Shown here piece after piece: positions 39,803-47,386 of a stretch of DNA of 64,000 bases (within the stretch, counting starts at the first letter, position 1; every line of letters starts with the position of its first letter). The notes beneath the pieces were generated by a model. The model saw only the letters and a program-made list of their open reading frames with translations. It was not told the DNA's origin and made no database searches. Location of the stretch: NCBI RefSeq assembly GCF_000212735.1, contig NC_015510.1, positions 5,085,001-5,149,000 of the forward strand, in the 5' to 3' direction. Source of the stretch: Haliscomenobacter hydrossis DSM 1100 (GTDB lineage: Bacteria > Bacteroidota > Bacteroidia > Chitinophagales > Saprospiraceae). Made by a program: the position numbers and the translations under genes.

Positions 39803-40972
39803 TTAATTAAAGAACTCGTAATCACTTGCAACTAAGGCAACGTCCATGCCACTAGCTAGAAGGTAGTGCCTTAAAGTATCAATCCTTGTCCAGCCTCCCA
39901 GCTGTGCAATCATTTTTAGGCTAACTCCATCCAAATAAAGGTTGGTAGCGCCTGATCGACGCGCAGTGTGGGTAGAGACGAACCCGCATTTAGGACCCGA
40001 TTTATTGCCCTGTTTAATGACGGTGTTGATCCCTGCCAAACTCGCAATCTGCTTGATCTTTACATTGGCTTTCACATTGCTGACTTTTGGAAGTTGGTAA
40101 TCGTACCTCTTCATAATATCCAACGCGGCAGGTTTTAATGGAAGCACAACTTCTACTTCCGTTTTTTCTGATGTGTAGCTATAGAAGAGTTTACCCTTTG
40201 ATTCAACGATGTTGTCTCTATTGATCTTCATGCTATCTCCAAATCGAATTAAGAGGTAATAACTGATCAAAAACCTGTCTTTTTCAAGTTGCAGGGATGG
40301 CCACTCCGAAAGATCAAGAGCTTCAATTTTTTGAATTTCCTCCTGAGTGAGGTAAAACTTAATGCCCTTGCTTTTTTTATGCATCCTAAACTCCTTGTCT
40401 CTGAAAGCCAAATTGTTGTGCAGTTTCCGGTCAAGGCCTAATTTCATGAACTTTTTCAGGTTCTTGACATGATTGGCAAAGCCTTGTAATTCAGTCTTAC
40501 ATACAGTATTAAGGAAATTCCAATAGCTTTTGTAAAACTTCATATCAATGTCCTCAAAATGAAGGTCAGACAATCCAGTGTACCGACAATATTGTAGAAG
40601 CCTGTTCTTCAAGGCTACGTAGCTTTTTATGGTCGTTTTTCTTATTGGATGTAATCCATCCTGAACCTCAGCAATGTATTGGTTGATCAATTCGATCAAT
40701 GACTGTTTTTTTGATCGCCCTTGGACGTCCTGAATGCTTTCACCTTCTCGGAGACGTCGTTCTACTTCTATACACTTTGCAGTCAGTATACTATTGTAGG
40801 TTGTGGCAAGTGGATGACTAGGCTTTACTTTTCGGTTTTTTTTGTTCCAGTGATCAGGCAAAATTGCAATGTCAGTGCCGATATACTTTGCTTTGCCTGT
40901 GTACACATAGATTTTGATGGAGCATGTCCCGTTATCTCTAGGTTGCGTCCACAGTATTGGATAAACTGTCAT
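39803..40972 (-). CDS. int: Tyrosine recombinase (integrase) of the element
   Basis: This 389-aa protein has the domains of Bacteroidota phage-type integrases: an N-terminal arm-binding domain (residues about 1-50, YVYTGKAKYIGTDIAILPDHW), a SAM-like core-binding domain (about 100-195) and a catalytic domain (about 205-389). Catalytic residues visible are Arg in LLIRFGDSMKI, Lys in TSEKTEVEV, H335-T-A-R338 (HTARRSGATN), W361 in the H/W position (LGGWTRID) and the nucleophile Tyr370 (LRHYLL). It should catalyse insertion into and excision from the tRNA-Thr site. The excision partner is probably the HTH protein at 47153-47386. Confidence 0.92.
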   Translation of the reverse strand: MTVYPILWTQPRDNGTCSIKIYVYTGKAKYIGTDIAILPDHWNKKNRKVKPSHPLATTYNSILTAKCIEVERRLREGESIQDVQGRSKKQSLIELINQYIAEVQDGLHPIRKTTIKSYVALKNRLLQYCRYTGLSDLHFEDIDMKFYKSYWNFLNTVCKTELQGFANHVKNLKKFMKLGLDRKLHNNLAFRDKEFRMHKKSKGIKFYLTQEEIQKIEALDLSEWPSLQLEKDRFLISYYLLIRFGDSMKINRDNIVESKGKLFYSYTSEKTEVEVVLPLKPAALDIMKRYDYQLPKVSNVKANVKIKQIASLAGINTVIKQGNKSGPKCGFVSTHTARRSGATNLYLDGVSLKMIAQLGGWTRIDTLRHYLLASGMDVALVASDYEFFN

Positions 40973-40990: not shown

Positions 40991-41338
40991 TTAAGCAATT
41001 GGTTTCATTTGTTTCAATGCTCGCTCTTTGAAAAGCTTATAAGCTTGTTCTTTGGCCTTTAGTTGGTTCTCCCAAAACAGAACCCAAACTTCATTATTCG
41101 CAATTGCATTGGTCAGTCGATTTGATACCTTCCTACCTTTTCTTTTTGCTGCTATCTGTTGCTGGATATAGCGGGAGTGGCGTTTACGGTAGTGCCTGAT
41201 ACGTTGCTGCAATTGCCAGAACTCAAATTTTTCGTGTGCTGTTAAGGGTGTTTCCCGTTTCCGTTGCCATTCGTGGAACTCCCGTTCAATATGCCCGGCG
41301 CAATCTTTGGCCGTGTACCGTTGCGCCGGGGTGATCCG
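40991..41338 (-). CDS. -1 frame extension of the membrane/coiled-coil protein (frameshift product tail)
   Basis: In the -1 frame relative to the upstream gene, codons from 41338 (CGG) encode 115 residues to a stop at 40991. The sequence reads as a real basic helical protein (RITPAQRYTAKD, HIEREFHEWQRKRET, QQRIRHYRKRHSRYIQQQI, AKRKGRKVSNRLTNAI, LKQMKPIA). The frame is open back to 41456 but has no ATG or GTG; its only standard start is TTG 41212, which would drop half of it. The slippery heptamer and stem-loop at 41294-41344 can deliver ribosomes into it, giving a 535-aa fusion. The basic composition suggests nucleic acid or membrane-surface contact. The alternative is an ordinary frameshift mutation. 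Confidence 0.65.
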   Translation of the reverse strand, partial: RITPAQRYTAKDCAGHIEREFHEWQRKRETPLTAHEKFEFWQLQQRIRHYRKRHSRYIQQQIAAKRKGRKVSNRLTNAIANNEVWVLFWENQLKAKEQAYKLFKERALKQMKPIA

Positions 41339-42597
41339 TTTCCCGTTCCACTTGGTTGAGGAGTAGATGGGGCATGGTTCCCGGTACCATTCCCCGTACT
41401 TCCGGTATTGCCTTGCATACGATTGGCCACTATAATATTCGGATCGATCAGGTCTTCAAAAGCTACATTGAAGACAGGTTGTTTCAAGTTTTCCAAAGAA
41501 TACAGCTCATTAGGCGAAAGGGGCAAGGGTGGCGGCGGTGTAGATTCCTCGATACTACGGATACCTGACCGGATAAACTGATTCCATTTGCCACTCAGGG
41601 CGTGTAGCAATTCACTCATCACAGAACCGCTAAAGTCGTATTGTGTGGGTAGTACCTTGTCCTCGATGCCTGATCCTTTCTTGAATGTTTCATCCACTGC
41701 GATGGATACAATGAGCACTAAATGGCAAATCACCGTGAACCAACTCAAGCCGCCTTTGTAGCGGTTCGTTTTACGGTCTCCATCGCTTACCGTTTTAGTA
41801 TTGGTCAGCTCTGTCTTTTGCTTCGCCTGCTCCAGCTCAGTATTTGCCTTTGCCAAGGCTTTGGTTTTTCGATCGGTAGCAGCGCTTAGCTCTTTGGCCT
41901 TGTCGGTTTCCAAAGCTGCAAGTTTTGCGGCCTGGTCTGATTCGGCTGTGGCCAATCTTTCGCGGGCTTGAGCTTTGGCAGTACTAAACCTTTGCCCGGC
42001 ACGCTCTTTGGCTTCCAGCGTTTGTATCTGTCCGGTCACTTGTGCAATCACCGCGGCGTACTGTGTCTTTGTTGCGTTGGACTGCGCGGCGTAACGTTGA
42101 GCAATCTCCGTACTGTCTGCGCGGTAGTGCTGGAAGGTATTCCGTTCGGCAAGCATGTACTTGTCTTCGGCTTGCTTATTGTTGTGAAGCTGCGGCATAG
42201 GCTTGACTGCGTCCACCACGTCACGGGAGCCGTGGTAACTCATTAGCGTGCCTGCGCTGAGCAATACCGCACAGGCCAGAAACACAATGGCCGTAATGAC
42301 TCGGTCAAGCCCGGAAAAGCGGCGGTACAACACCGCACGGGCACTGTATGGCAAAAGCACACGTAAGCCAGCTTCAATGATGACCACCCCAAGCAATGCC
42401 CCAGATGTGGCCCCCCACGTTGCAAAACTGGGCGAAAAGAAAACCAAACTCGCATGAATGGCAGTGTACAACACCGCAATCTCGGTAAGGGCGCTAACCA
42501 CTTGCCCCAGGTAGCCCGATAACTTTAGCGCCGGGATCAAACGGGCATAGCGGTTAAAAAATGCCTGGTCCGTTGGCAACGATAGAAATGTTTTCAT
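41242..42597 (-). CDS. Membrane protein with coiled coil; zero-frame product of a frameshift gene
   Basis: 451 residues from ATG 42597; a reading from 42708 would cross a hairpin and has no support. Predicted membrane segments lie at about residues 25-50, 60-80, 95-120 and 280-300 (SWFTVICHLVLIVSIAV). Between the third and fourth is a long Ala/Glu/Lys/Gln coiled coil (residues about 145-270: YAAVIAQVTGQIQTLEAKE, ARERLATAESDQAAKLAALE). The C-terminal ~45 residues are Gly/Asn/Thr/Ser-rich. Codon 419-420 is GGA AAC inside G GGA AAC, followed by a strong stem-loop, so a fraction of ribosomes may continue in the -1 frame. I do not recognise the family. A membrane scaffold for the element is a guess. 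Confidence 0.75.
   Translation of the reverse strand: MKTFLSLPTDQAFFNRYARLIPALKLSGYLGQVVSALTEIAVLYTAIHASLVFFSPSFATWGATSGALLGVVIIEAGLRVLLPYSARAVLYRRFSGLDRVITAIVFLACAVLLSAGTLMSYHGSRDVVDAVKPMPQLHNNKQAEDKYMLAERNTFQHYRADSTEIAQRYAAQSNATKTQYAAVIAQVTGQIQTLEAKERAGQRFSTAKAQARERLATAESDQAAKLAALETDKAKELSAATDRKTKALAKANTELEQAKQKTELTNTKTVSDGDRKTNRYKGGLSWFTVICHLVLIVSIAVDETFKKGSGIEDKVLPTQYDFSGSVMSELLHALSGKWNQFIRSGIRSIEESTPPPPLPLSPNELYSLENLKQPVFNVAFEDLIDPNIIVANRMQGNTGSTGNGTGNHAPSTPQPSGTGNGSPRRNGTRPKIAPGILNGSSTNGNGNGKHP
41294..41344 (-). promoter_or_regulatory. Candidate programmed -1 ribosomal frameshift signal
   Basis: The slippery heptamer G GGA AAC (41344-41338, - strand) is in the correct phase: GGA and AAC are zero-frame codons 419 and 420. 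A 7-nt spacer (GGATCAC) is followed by a perfect 10-bp stem CCCGGCGCAA (41330-41321) / TTGCGCCGGG (41303-41294) with a 17-nt loop. Heptamer, phase, spacer and stem all fit the established -1 frameshift architecture; GGGAAAC is a known slippery sequence. Confidence 0.7.
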
Positions 42598-42705: not shown

Positions 42706-42734
42706 CACCTGTATCAGGTGCCCGAATCATTCGG
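42706..42734. repeat. Two small adjacent palindromes
   Basis: CACCTG-TAT-CAGGTG (42706-42720) and CCGAA-TCA-TTCGG (42722-42734) stand back to back beside the iteron array. They are possible protein-binding sites or origin hairpins. Confidence 0.5.
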
Positions 42735-43073: not shown

Positions 43074-45335
43074 TCAATCTTCTGGAACATTGGAGAGCCT
43101 GCGTACATAATAGCCTTTCACCTGGTAGTTCGTTCTTCGATCGTGCCGCTGGGTCTTTTCAAAGGCTAAAACCTTGAGAGCCCGTCCAACTGGGACTTTG
43201 TAGAGTGTGGTCTTTATATTCTCCTGGAGCGCCGACATGATTTCCGTAGCGGTCATAAATTCACAGCCTTCCTCTTCCTTGGAAGCTGGAGCAAAGTATT
43301 TTTGAATCAATTCTTGCTCAACGGTAGCGACCTGGTAACTCTGATTGTTACGCTCTGATTTGGCGATCTCGTCTTTGCTCAAGTGCATCTCAAAACCTGA
43401 CAATAAGAGGCTATACGCTTGGCTGTACACCTGATCAATTTTAACCTTGGCATTGTAGCCATTTGGGCCTCCGTTTTCATGCCGAACACCTTTGATTTCA
43501 AAAACCAACCATCGAACGTTACCCGTTTCATCCACCAAAAATTCGTCTTCGTTGGTGCTGGCAATGAAGGAAGCCCGGCGCTTGATGGTTGACGCTTTGC
43601 GGTCGTAAGGAAGGCGCTCTTTGATCTTTTCAATGGTGAAAAGCGCCTTGGCTTTCTTGACGTCACTTTTGGAAAAAACTGAGAGCTCATCCAGGTTGAT
43701 GAGGTAGTTTTGGCAAAGGGCAATGCGGCCATCTTTTGATTCCATATCAATGAAGTCGGTCATGTAGTCCGACAATTGAGGAGGGCAGAGGAAACGAATA
43801 AAGGAACTCTTACCGTCGTTTTGGCCACTCTTCAAAACGAAACAATGTTTGTTAAACGGAATGCGCCCAATTGCACAGGCGACCGTTCGTACAAGCATCT
43901 TTTTGAACTGCTTTTCAAACCATACCTTATCAATAGCTTCAACATAGCTGGCCAATAGCTTAATATAGTCTGTATCCTGTGGTGTCCACTTAGGTAAGGA
44001 TTGGAAGTATTCCTGGAATGGATCATAATCTTGTACAAAGCTAGACTTGATCAAGGCGATGACGGGACCTTCAACACCTGTAAAGCCTACTTCCATCAAT
44101 TCACAAAAAAGGTCATTTTCGTTGAGCGGCTTCCAGGTCGAGCTTTTGCTTTTACGTCGGGCTTCAATATCCAAGCTGACCAGGTTGCGGCGGAATTCAT
44201 ATCGGTTGGAAATGTATTTTTTAATCCGCATGAACTTCGACTTTTCAGCACTTTCGCTTTCCCCTTGATTGTCCTCTTCATCATCATCGCTGACCTGGTC
44301 AGCTTCAATAGCTTGTACAGTGTTTTGAGTCAACATGGCTGCTACCGTAGATCCAGGCTCTATTTTACTGGCATAACTCAATATCTGCTGATCGCTGTAC
44401 TCTCTGCTTTTACTTTTGAAGGCACTCTCAACCGTTTTCTTTATTTCCTCCTGGTCAAAGCCATTTTCTTCGTACTGAAGTAAGTTGGCCAAAGCGATTT
44501 CATTTTCTACGCCAAAGCGAGCCATTTCGCAAGCTGCGGCAAAGACAAAGTTGTTGCGACCTCCAGGGATGTTCTGCCTGTTAACTTTGTTCATGCACAA
44601 TTCAATTTTGTGTGAATCGGTCAAAGGTGCTGCATGTGGTTGGGTGGTCTTTTTAATTGGCCTTTGTTCCTTTTGGGGCGCTTGCTCCAGCGTAAAGACA
44701 TGGCTGTGCGGATTGTGGTAAAATAGATCTGCTGGAACATGAGCATAGAACCACAAGCGGGCTAGATTGGAGGTACTACTGTCTAAATGCTCCCTGCGTT
44801 TGATTTCCGCATCGATGTCGGTTTTATTTAGCCCTTGCACACTTAATTCTTTACGGATGTGTTTGTCTGTGGGAATGCCCAAAAAGTCGCTCAGGTAAGC
44901 GCTTATAGCCTCGTAGTAGGTTTTATGTGTGTCCGGCGTGGATTCACACTCTACGAAGATGCGCAACCCCGTACGGCTAGGGCTAGGGTAGGCCGCACGT
45001 ACAAAAGGGCATTCACGCAATTGTTTGATGTATTCTTCTACAATGGCCTCAAAGCCAATAGCATCAACATCAAAGCCTAACAAAGGAATGTATTCCTGAC
45101 AAGCATTGTTTTTCCGTTCGGGGAATTTTCCGATAATAAAGGCAGGTGATTCTGTTTCCTTCATCTTCTTGAAATCATCAGTACCCTTAGCCGCCAACAG
45201 CTTATTTGTCCATTCAATGAGTATGCTATTATTGGGATCAATCATCCGGTTCCAAACCACTTCAATGCCTTCAAATTGTTGGGTTTTATTGCTTCCTGTA
45301 GCGCCCCGATAGATAGAAACAGTAAAATTATTCAT
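43074..45335 (-). CDS. VapE-type primase-helicase (BT4734/VirE-like N-terminus)
   Basis: This 753-aa protein has three parts. Residues about 1-215 resemble the BT4734/VirE N-terminal primase-like domain (LLGFDVDAIGFE, AYPSPSRTGLRIFVECE, STSNLARLWFYAHVP). Residues about 245-320 resemble a primase C-terminal helical domain (GGRNNFVFAAACEMARFGV). Residues about 400-700 are a virulence-associated-E superfamily 3-like helicase/ATPase with Walker A GQNDGKSS at 504-511, Walker B-like LINLDELSVF, and FIASTNEDEFLVDETGNVRW. Proteins of this type initiate replication of phage satellites and mobilisable elements. It starts 66 bp after the preceding gene's stop, with a hairpin between. The iteron array lies directly downstream, giving a plausible replicon. 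Confidence 0.88.
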   Translation of the reverse strand: MNNFTVSIYRGATGSNKTQQFEGIEVVWNRMIDPNNSILIEWTNKLLAAKGTDDFKKMKETESPAFIIGKFPERKNNACQEYIPLLGFDVDAIGFEAIVEEYIKQLRECPFVRAAYPSPSRTGLRIFVECESTPDTHKTYYEAISAYLSDFLGIPTDKHIRKELSVQGLNKTDIDAEIKRREHLDSSTSNLARLWFYAHVPADLFYHNPHSHVFTLEQAPQKEQRPIKKTTQPHAAPLTDSHKIELCMNKVNRQNIPGGRNNFVFAAACEMARFGVENEIALANLLQYEENGFDQEEIKKTVESAFKSKSREYSDQQILSYASKIEPGSTVAAMLTQNTVQAIEADQVSDDDEEDNQGESESAEKSKFMRIKKYISNRYEFRRNLVSLDIEARRKSKSSTWKPLNENDLFCELMEVGFTGVEGPVIALIKSSFVQDYDPFQEYFQSLPKWTPQDTDYIKLLASYVEAIDKVWFEKQFKKMLVRTVACAIGRIPFNKHCFVLKSGQNDGKSSFIRFLCPPQLSDYMTDFIDMESKDGRIALCQNYLINLDELSVFSKSDVKKAKALFTIEKIKERLPYDRKASTIKRRASFIASTNEDEFLVDETGNVRWLVFEIKGVRHENGGPNGYNAKVKIDQVYSQAYSLLLSGFEMHLSKDEIAKSERNNQSYQVATVEQELIQKYFAPASKEEEGCEFMTATEIMSALQENIKTTLYKVPVGRALKVLAFEKTQRHDRRTNYQVKGYYVRRLSNVPED

Positions 45336-46161: not shown

Positions 46162-46512
46162 CTACGCTCTTTTCAGTAGTGCAGCACCCAGTAGCGCGAT
46201 AGTGCCCAATCCAGCTAATACAGCCATCGAATTATCTTTTTTCTTGACCGTCCGCTTGCGCTTGCGCTTAGGCTTTGGTGGCTCTGTCGTAGGCTCCGTT
46301 AAGGTTACCAGGTTACCGACAGTCGACGTTCCACAGGTGCATCCTACTGTGGCGGGTGAACCTGTGCTAGCCATTGGAGCTTCTACCTTTGTTTGCTCTA
46401 CAGAGCATGCAACAACGGGAACTCCTGGCGCTAATGCGAGAATTTCGCCCACTTTCGATTTTTTTGATCGTTTCACTTTGGAATTAATTTGCGACAGGAA
46501 GGTTCCTATCAT
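46162..46512 (-). CDS. Small basic single-membrane-span protein of the element (1)
   Basis: 116 residues from ATG 46512. A basic N-terminus (NSKVKRSKKSK) is followed by a Pro/Thr/Cys-containing middle (VGCTCGTSTVGNLVTL), a strong Lys/Arg tract (PKPKRKRKRTVKKK) and one C-terminal membrane span (MAVLAGLGTIALLGAALL) ending KRA. The topology, basic tract then terminal anchor, is shared with the next gene. No family is recognised. Runs of small single-span basic proteins occur among virion membrane proteins of internal-membrane phages; that comparison is only suggestive. Confidence 0.6.
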   Translation of the reverse strand: MIGTFLSQINSKVKRSKKSKVGEILALAPGVPVVACSVEQTKVEAPMASTGSPATVGCTCGTSTVGNLVTLTEPTTEPPKPKRKRKRTVKKKDNSMAVLAGLGTIALLGAALLKRA

Positions 46513-46534
46513 TTTTATTAAGAAAATTTAAAAG

Positions 46535-46786
46535 CTAAGTACGGACACTCCGGATGTAGATTTTAATCCCCAGATATAGCAAACCTCCAGCCACTCCAAG
46601 AAGGATAGAATTATTCATCTTCTTTCTTTTTGCGTCTTGTGCCCACTTTGATTTATATCCGGTAACTCTACGGTTTCGTTTAGATTTGCCGGATATTTTA
46701 CTTTCATCAGAATTAGAAGAGCATTGACATACATCTGCTCCTACGACTACATGGCTGACACTGTCTGGCAGTTTTTCTTGATTCAT
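46535..46786 (-). CDS. Small basic single-membrane-span protein of the element (2)
   Basis: 83 residues from ATG 46786. An acidic/polar N-terminus with a C-x-C pair (GADVCQCSSNSDE) is followed by a basic tract (GKSKRNRRVTGYKSKWAQDAKRKK) and a C-terminal membrane span (SILLGVAGGLLYLGIKIYI). It has the same plan as the 116-aa protein encoded 22 bp downstream, so the two may be distant paralogues or act together. Function not recognised. Confidence 0.6.
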   Translation of the reverse strand: MNQEKLPDSVSHVVVGADVCQCSSNSDESKISGKSKRNRRVTGYKSKWAQDAKRKKMNNSILLGVAGGLLYLGIKIYIRSVRT

Positions 46787-46816
46787 GCCGTTTGATTTAT
46801 GGTGAAAAATAAGTTA

Positions 46817-47053
46817 CTACCGCTTTGGCGCAAACACCCCACCTTGCCCAAATAGGGTATTAGCCAGGTTAGCTAAAAAGCCAGTTGCTTGAGCCGCTGT
46901 TTCCCATCCTTTACCCTTCTGCTGTTGTGGGTAGTTACTAGGGTACGCGGGATAAACAGGCGTTTGTACAGGTGGGCGCTTTTGACTTTGGATAAGCGAA
47001 AAGGCTGCTACGCCTACCCCCAAGGCTATAAGGATTTTTGTTTTAGAATCCAT
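46817..47053 (-). CDS. Small single-membrane-span protein of the element (3)
   Basis: 78 residues from ATG 47053. One N-terminal membrane span (KILIALGVGVAAFSLI) is followed by a Pro/Tyr/Gln-rich linker (PVYPAYPSNYPQQQKGK) and a short amphipathic C-terminus (AAQATGFLANLANTLFGQGG). No signal-peptidase site is obvious. A hairpin at 47081-47102 precedes the start codon by 27 bp. It is third in a row of small membrane protein genes; function unknown. Confidence 0.55.
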   Translation of the reverse strand: MDSKTKILIALGVGVAAFSLIQSQKRPPVQTPVYPAYPSNYPQQQKGKGWETAAQATGFLANLANTLFGQGGVFAPKR

Positions 47054-47080
47054 TGGTTTGAAATTGAATTTGAAAAATGT

Positions 47081-47111
47081 GCGGCGCTAAAATCAGCGCC
47101 GCTTTTCTTTT
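47081..47111 (+). terminator. GC-rich hairpin with T-rich tail on the + strand
   Basis: Stem GCGGCGCT (47081-47088) / AGCGCCGC (47095-47102) with a 6-nt loop, then TTTTCTTTT on the + strand. On the - strand it precedes the start codon at 47053 by 27 bp and has a weaker T5 on that side. Confidence 0.5.
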
Positions 47112-47152
47112 GCGCCTCGTTTTGCCTATGTAACCCTGATTACTTGGCTGCT

Positions 47153-47386
47153 CTACGCGGCATTAGAAGTTGGTGAAGAGTCCGGGGAAATTCTGATCAG
47201 TTTGCCATAACCGCTTCGGTATTTCAGAACTTCCTGTAAATCAAAAAGAACCTTGCGTCCCATCTTATAAAAAGGGACAGCGCGAATTTTGATCCAGCGA
47301 TCGATAGTTGGAATTGACACTTTCAATTCCCCTGCTAACTGCTTTCTAGTAAGCAATAGCTTCTGCTCATTTTGTTCTTCAGTCAT
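47153..47386 (-). CDS. Helix-turn-helix excisionase-like protein
   Basis: 77 residues: LLTRKQLAGELKVSIPTIDRWIKIRAVPFYKMGRKVLFDLQEVLKY is the compact MerR-like winged HTH (HTH_17) of Bacteroidota excisionases and AlpA-like regulators, with the recognition helix at PTIDRWI and the wing at KMGRKVLF. It probably directs integrase towards excision and may repress the element's own transcription. Upstream, at 47404-47534, are an inverted repeat and 14-bp direct repeats that may be its operators. Confidence 0.85.
   Translation of the reverse strand: MTEEQNEQKLLLTRKQLAGELKVSIPTIDRWIKIRAVPFYKMGRKVLFDLQEVLKYRSGYGKLIRISPDSSPTSNAA

Follow-up and report, generated by a model that had tools for sequence, protein, structure and literature searches.

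The window, that is, the whole stretch of 64,000 nucleotides of Haliscomenobacter hydrossis DSM 1100 DNA that was analysed, carries on its minus strand a membrane-protein gene flanked by replication and integration genes. The features of this locus are given in Table 1. The 0 frame of the membrane-protein gene was read from the ATG at 42597 and is open further upstream, to a GTG at 42708. Its stop codon (41244-41242) lies 31 codons downstream of a GGGAAAC heptamer in slip phase. The arms of the stem, CCCGGCGCAA (41330-41321) and TTGCGCCGGG (41303-41294), pair without a mismatch. From one stop to the next, the -1 frame spans 154 open codons, of which 115 follow the slip, and it ends at a stop codon at 40993-40991; the predicted fusion has 535 aa versus 451 aa for the 0-frame product. 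The tyrosine integrase gene begins 18 nt past this -1 stop. A preliminary description, made from the sequence alone, had reported the heptamer, its slip phase, the 7-nt spacer, the 10-bp stem and the 17-nt loop, and all of these coordinates were correct on recheck. The 115-codon -1 frame to 40991 and the products of 451 and 535 aa were borne out by the ORF check, and the tail described as basic has a net charge of +16. It had also noted that the -1 frame lacks an ATG or GTG start: GTG was indeed absent, the sole ATG was codon 110 of 115, and TTG occurred at codons 42 and 107. The region 46162-47386, upstream of the VapE gene, holds three small ORFs of 116, 83 and 78 aa, in which hydrophobic stretches were recognised by eye, and a small ORF (47153-47386) that by eye is helix-turn-helix-like. 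None of the 116-, 83- and 78-aa ORFs matched anything below E 0.03 in the single library used for each.

Table 1. Features of the H. hydrossis frameshift locus in the window.
Feature	Position	Strand	Evidence
0-frame membrane-protein gene, 451 aa + stop codon	41242..42597	-	ORF analysis, hydropathy
Slip heptamer G_GGA_AAC, -1 phase	41338..41344	-	Sequence, phase control
Spacer, 7 nt	41331..41337	-	Sequence
Putative stimulatory stem-loop, 10 bp + 17-nt loop	41294..41330	-	Sequence, folding
-1 frame extension, 115 codons + stop, net charge +16	40991..41338	-	ORF analysis; selection; structure model
Diverged palindromic DNA site, start of tail module	41231..41249	-	Scores 16/26, p 0.03; consensus TTCGTGTGMCCTTTATAGCACACGAA
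Tyrosine integrase	39803..40972	-	Pfam Arm-DNA-bind_5, Phage_int_SAM_5, Phage_integrase
Primase/VapE-type replication protein, upstream	43074..45335	-	Pfam VapE-like_dom, PriCT_1, BT4734-like_N

Hydropathy analysis gave four hydrophobic segments in the window 0-frame protein. The model of an in-frame homologue (L014, pLDDT 83) contained a long coiled-coil hairpin and an Asn/Gly-rich linker, and its residues 355-422 (68 residues) fell below pLDDT 50. This linker is presumably disordered, and judging from the model the window slip site falls in the corresponding linker. The window tail was modelled as two long helices with pLDDT 86. Searched against Pfam and PHROG, the 0-frame protein had no match up to E 1; its NCBIfam matches were all sub-threshold, and its residues 1-387 had no match among phage and plasmid records. 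The tail had no Pfam match, and its PHROG matches were weak (best E 0.048). Fold searches with the tail model and the full-length model returned nothing at E<=0.001. Profile searches of the PDB by sequence gave nothing convincing, with a best E of 0.12 in one search and no match in the other. Matches to ABC transporters and seryl-tRNA synthetase were read as generic long helices.

Matches to the window protein were found in 11 of 100 relatives and in 68 of 398 family genomes. From about 96 listed places, roughly half were left out, mostly weak matches of 19-29% identity, and 47 distinct loci were classified; L042 was removed as the same as L020, and L010 and L015 stand outside this set. Among the 47, the tail was in the -1 frame in 4 and in frame 0 in 21, a C4 zinc finger was in frame 0 in 17, and 5 had neither, so that 38 members need no frameshift. 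The four -1 frame copies were those of the window, L012, which is the second copy in H. hydrossis, and L002 and L003, which come from two genomes of its genus; the last three share 58-63% protein identity with the window protein. GGGAAAC in slip phase and an open -1 tail were present in 4/4 tail-bearing family members found in the genus, and CCCGGCG/CGCCGGG stem arms followed the heptamer after 6-7 nt in all of them. The preliminary description had proposed a comparison of homologues for heptamer, phase, stem and -1 frame, and within these four copies of one genus all were kept. The fifth family member in the genus (L013) has a zinc finger in frame. Among viral contigs, no relative of the main alignment, the window tail or the newly found tails was detected; the tail of L012 had one match, contig L114, in which the tail is in frame. 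The L162 tail had no match among phage records. The second H. hydrossis copy (L061, 8276-9709) adjoins a gene for a replication-initiation protein (phrog_20614, E 1.5e-14; weak Rep_trans match), a replicon type that differs from the VapE element of the window.

The search was extended beyond this gene family. A profile of the window tail matched in 23 of 398 family genomes, and short open frames drew in two additional genera and a third element of H. hydrossis. An in-phase GGGAAAC occurs in the membrane-protein genes of L060, which lies next to a DUF3987 gene in H. hydrossis, and of L080 (genome G228); neither of the two upstream proteins convincingly resembles the other (E 0.026) or the window family (hhalign probabilities 1.3 and 0.8). 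L015 (genome G005) uses GGGAAAG, and its protein is related to the window protein remotely at best (E 1e-6, residues 101-271). Together with the window, L012, L002 and L003, these formed the first seven loci. The upstream proteins of L060 and L080 were each searched in 388 family genomes, which gave 29 further loci after L141 and L132, the loci of the queries themselves, had been left out. The domain was in the -1 frame in 24 of the 29, in frame in two (zinc finger in L142, tail-like in L154), and absent from either frame in three (L140, L144 and L152), of which L144 looks broken and L152 stops at a contig end. In total, 31 loci carry a C-terminal domain in the -1 frame; they come from 20 genera, all in the family Saprospiraceae, and each of the 31 upstream proteins contains 2-4 hydrophobic segments. 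The frameshift reading of the preliminary description was supported by this set, in which 27 loci beyond the four window-family copies share the design, mostly with the same heptamer class.

The domains appended at the 24 loci were tail-like in 13, zinc fingers in 6 (L136, L139, L143, L145, L148 and L153) and helix-turn-helix domains in 5 (L133, L134, L135, L137 and L138). The 13 tail-like domains are possibly, not securely, related to the window tail (hhalign probability 10%, E 0.003). Pfam searches with nine zinc-finger and helix-turn-helix peptides gave one match above the cut-off (HTH_36 in L138), L145 reached just E 0.44, and the zinc fingers of L136 and L148 were called by eye from their cysteines. 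Of the 21 loci L142-L162, 17 have an integrase-like stretch upstream, in the same orientation, whose match stops 19-168 nt short of the membrane-protein match; for L142 and L145, two of these 17, it was weak, at about 24% identity. Four wider views contained Phage_integrase, SAM-like and Arm-DNA-bind_5 matches, some of the latter two just below the cut-off. DUF3987 homologues occurred near L060, L134, L135 and L148, and VapE homologues near L062 and L137.

The heptamer was evaluated by its frequency and phase. In ORFs of at least 200 aa from the window and eight loci, three of which are other copies of the window gene, in-phase GGGAAAC occurred 8 times in 41,850 codons, and 6 of these 8 were frameshift sites of the window kind. 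Within the 31 overlaps, GGGAAA(A/C/G) was found 24 times at the slip phase versus 4 and 1 times at the other phases, and any X_XXY_YYZ with Y = A or T 30 times versus 9 and 9; codon preference could contribute to this bias. A canonical heptamer in slip phase was present in 27 of 31 loci. It was GGGAAA(A/C/G) in 23 loci of 14 genera (12 GGGAAAC, 10 GGGAAAG and 1 GGGAAAA) and CCCTTTC, CCCTTTT or an A-run in 4 further loci. No canonical heptamer was found in L134, L136, L138 and L145. GGGAAAN was missing from three helix-turn-helix versions (L134, L135 and L138), and GGGAAC and GTTCCC arms flank the 0-frame stop in both L134 and L135, a pattern that suggests another slip site in these two.

Where a canonical heptamer was present (27 loci), the best stem with its start 4-9 nt past the heptamer was compared with 300 dinucleotide shuffles. 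At the window, none of the shuffles gave as good a stem at the same position (p 0.003), and the folding energy by itself was unremarkable (z -1.6 / -1.9). The stem was better than in the shuffles at p<0.05 in 19 of the 27 loci, with spacers of 4-8 nt. The pooled values (Fisher p 2e-18; folding-energy Stouffer z -8.2) overstate independence, because the loci share ancestry and frameshift loci were the starting point of the searches. No stem beat the shuffles at p<0.05 in L060, L080, L015, L137, L139, L143, L148 and L153; L015 has a strong fold further downstream (z -3.3). In L012, the conserved stem was not the lowest-energy fold. The arms varied by group with pairing kept, as in CCCGGCG/CGCCGGG, GCCCTTC/GAAGGGC, GCCCGT/ACGGGC and GCCCTTTTCC/GGGGAAGGGC. 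Among the seven sequences whose arms are of the GCCCTTC/GAAGGGC type, pairing holds in 95.7% of the cells, versus 41-64% for slid versions; within this group, 325 of 500 shuffles reached the count of doubly changed pairs and 49 of 500 reached the covariation score. Covariation here was not clearly above the shuffled level; the argument for a stem at the RNA level comes mainly from different arms that pair at equal spacing across groups. In the window family, the conservation of the stem is confounded by double coding.

Selection on the two frames was then estimated from pairwise differences. Synonymous differences between the window 0-frame gene and L012, L002 and L003 were 0.73-0.78, and 0.60 between L012 and L002. 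Downstream of the 0-frame stop, all six pairs of the window family had pN (0.18-0.45) below pS (0.37-0.89). Nine loci of the extended set gave pN<pS in the -1 extension in 36/36 pairs (means of 0.21 and 0.79), like the 0-frame gene of the same loci (0.20 and 0.80). The -1 extension beyond the 0-frame stop is under purifying selection. In the overlap of 27-30 codons, the -1 frame showed no purifying signal in the window family pairs (pN 0.11-0.37, pS 0.06-0.46), and double coding could be the cause. Low synonymous change, which the preliminary description had named as a check, was seen in part: the 0-frame synonymous difference was smaller in the overlap than elsewhere in the gene in 6/6 pairs, but for the window and L002 the reduction was marginal (0.72 versus 0.73).

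The proposal that best accommodates these results is that two proteins are made from one message by programmed -1 ribosomal frameshifting, and we consider it highly probable from the sequence evidence. A mutation or sequencing error might instead have split an ancestral in-frame fusion, leaving a decaying tail or a wrong sequence. The preliminary description had taken homologues with both parts in one frame as a sign of such a simple mutation. Such homologues do exist, with the tail in frame 0 in 21 and the zinc finger in frame 0 in 17 of the 47 classified members; a mutation is not implied by them, because the out-of-frame form is conserved, selected and tied to the slip site and stem. In-frame fused relatives are also known for published programmed-frameshift genes, such as Mg chelatase, in the sections of PMC3711429 that treat them. 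The same -1 offset and in-phase heptamer recur in 4/4 tail-bearing copies of the genus, and the offset is found in other gene families across the 20 genera. Moreover, decay predicts pN close to pS, at odds with the purifying selection past the 0-frame stop. A split fusion is hence extremely improbable.

The tail might also be a separate overlapping gene, translated from an internal start or by stop-start coupling. Potential starts exist in the -1 frame: counted in codons from the slip, an ATG at 51 in both L012 and L002, at 31 in L080 and at 36 in L015, an ATG 5 nt past the 0-frame stop position in L161 and a GTG 2 nt past it in L156. Against this, both ATG and GTG are missing in 22 of the 31 loci between the slip and a point 75 nt beyond the 0-frame stop (TTG was excluded from this count), and the first ATG, GTG or TTG appears only at codon 84 in L003 and at codon 87 in L060. 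A separate gene would also leave the heptamer's phase bias and the stems unexplained, and it is accordingly judged very unlikely. RNA polymerase rather than the ribosome might slip, and in favour of this L137 and L143 have long A-runs at the junction; GGGAAAC, in contrast, holds no more than three identical bases consecutively. A downstream stem at near-constant 6-7-nt spacing is a ribosomal feature, and the stems here point to the ribosome. Polymerase slippage can be given very little credence.

From the design, its conservation and the selection on the extension, we infer slippage, a product ratio and a function along the following lines. Most ribosomes would terminate at 41242 and release the 451-aa membrane protein. 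The stem-loop 7 nt downstream of the heptamer would pause a fraction of them, which would slip backwards by one base on G_GGA_AAC and produce the 535-aa form with its basic helical C-terminal domain. The common part would serve as a membrane anchor. The extension would bind nucleic acid, because sister genes have a zinc finger or a helix-turn-helix domain at the same -1 position, these assignments coming mostly from sub-threshold Pfam matches. A set ratio of the two forms may fix how much element DNA, or an integrase or replication site, is tethered, sensed or regulated at the membrane. We regard this proposal for the function as a working hypothesis, somewhat less likely than not.

A palindromic site was observed in the coding linker of the tail genes. 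Sites scoring at least 16/26 against TTCGTGTGMCCTTTATAGCACACGAA, a consensus drawn from the scored loci themselves, stand before 36 of 41 distinct tails. With 200 first-order resampled sequences for each, p was <=0.005 for 34 of the 36 and 0.03 for two (the window copy and L130). The score of 16 was not reached before five of the 41 tails, the frameshift copy L003/L062 among them. The core, CCTTTATA, is asymmetric; 25 sites were forward and 11 inverted, and 14 forward and 11 inverted sites fell in one reading frame, 10 in another and 1 in the third. Iteron-like CACACGAA repeats also occurred in the coding linker of the 41 tail genes, for example in L126, L127, L128, L125 and L131. The 300 nt that precede the tails contain CACACGAA/TTCGTGTG 39 times, 25 of them outside the site, versus once in an equal stretch 600-900 nt upstream. 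This looks like a DNA-level element within the coding sequence, and the palindrome is a possible binding, origin or recombination site. Its use as attP of the neighbouring integrase, as a present crossover point, was rejected, as chromosomal copies hold the site uninterrupted within a single gene; in L060 and L061, no integrase gene was noted beyond the tail. A dispersed genomic repeat was not supported by a search of seven genomes, in which H. hydrossis had 2 matches at <=1 mismatch, both at tail modules.

The new set is defined by a recurrent order of G_GGA_AAN, about 7 nt and a stem; the membrane proteins encoded upstream are of several types, and the appended domains of three. The coexistence of in-frame and -1 versions makes it testable when and why evolution keeps a ratio-setting slip over a plain fusion, and the set directs attention to a step of integrative elements that is linked to the membrane and has not been described. 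A broader reading is more speculative and, in our judgement, rather unlikely to hold as a whole. It envisages a recoding platform of Saprospiraceae, in which a membrane anchor would receive an exchangeable nucleic-acid-binding C-terminus at a set -1 ratio, often adjoining an integrase, with the linker palindrome of the tail genes as the DNA target or exchange point of the module. If so, the gene would carry the binding or shuffling site of its own protein.

Few conserved programmed frameshifts lie outside mobile elements according to a review (PMC5009743, in its relevant sections), and the bacterial mobile-element cases described there are insertion sequences and phage tail genes. A total of 146 recoding clusters was predicted in PMC3711429. 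Among the top-ranked titles of literature searches, no paper on this frameshift family was recognised, and a mention as an unnamed cluster elsewhere, for example in supplements, is possible. The OrfA/OrfAB transposases of insertion sequences such as IS911 are alike in combining a -1 frameshift with a downstream structure in a mobile element (PMC5009743, same sections). An OrfAB transposase does not fit here, since no transposase domain or Pfam match was found in either part and a membrane protein is encoded instead. Mg chelatase resembles the present genes in that its parts are in one frame in some species and joined by frameshifting in others (PMC3711429, as above); it differs in its A-run slip sites, and the enzyme is unrelated to the membrane protein. 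The dnaX products tau and gamma are likewise a set ratio of short and long forms with a common N-terminus, from an unrelated gene, and the long form needs the shift here as in the two-ORF dnaX genes covered in parts of PMC5009743 and PMC3711429. A phage tail-assembly chaperone of the G/GT type does not fit either, since the neighbours are integrase and VapE-type genes, not tail tube or tape-measure genes, and the 0-frame protein has no PHROG match. The heptamer of phage lambda gpG/gpGT is G_GGA_AAG, and its class is shared here, with GGGAAAG in L015 and nine other loci. In lambda too, a -1 slip near the end of the upstream ORF adds a C-terminal domain in a mobile element (PMC5009743, section on this case). 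Unlike in lambda, the upstream gene here encodes a membrane protein beside an integrase, primase/VapE or DUF3987 gene, and the appended domain varies among a tail, a zinc finger and a helix-turn-helix.
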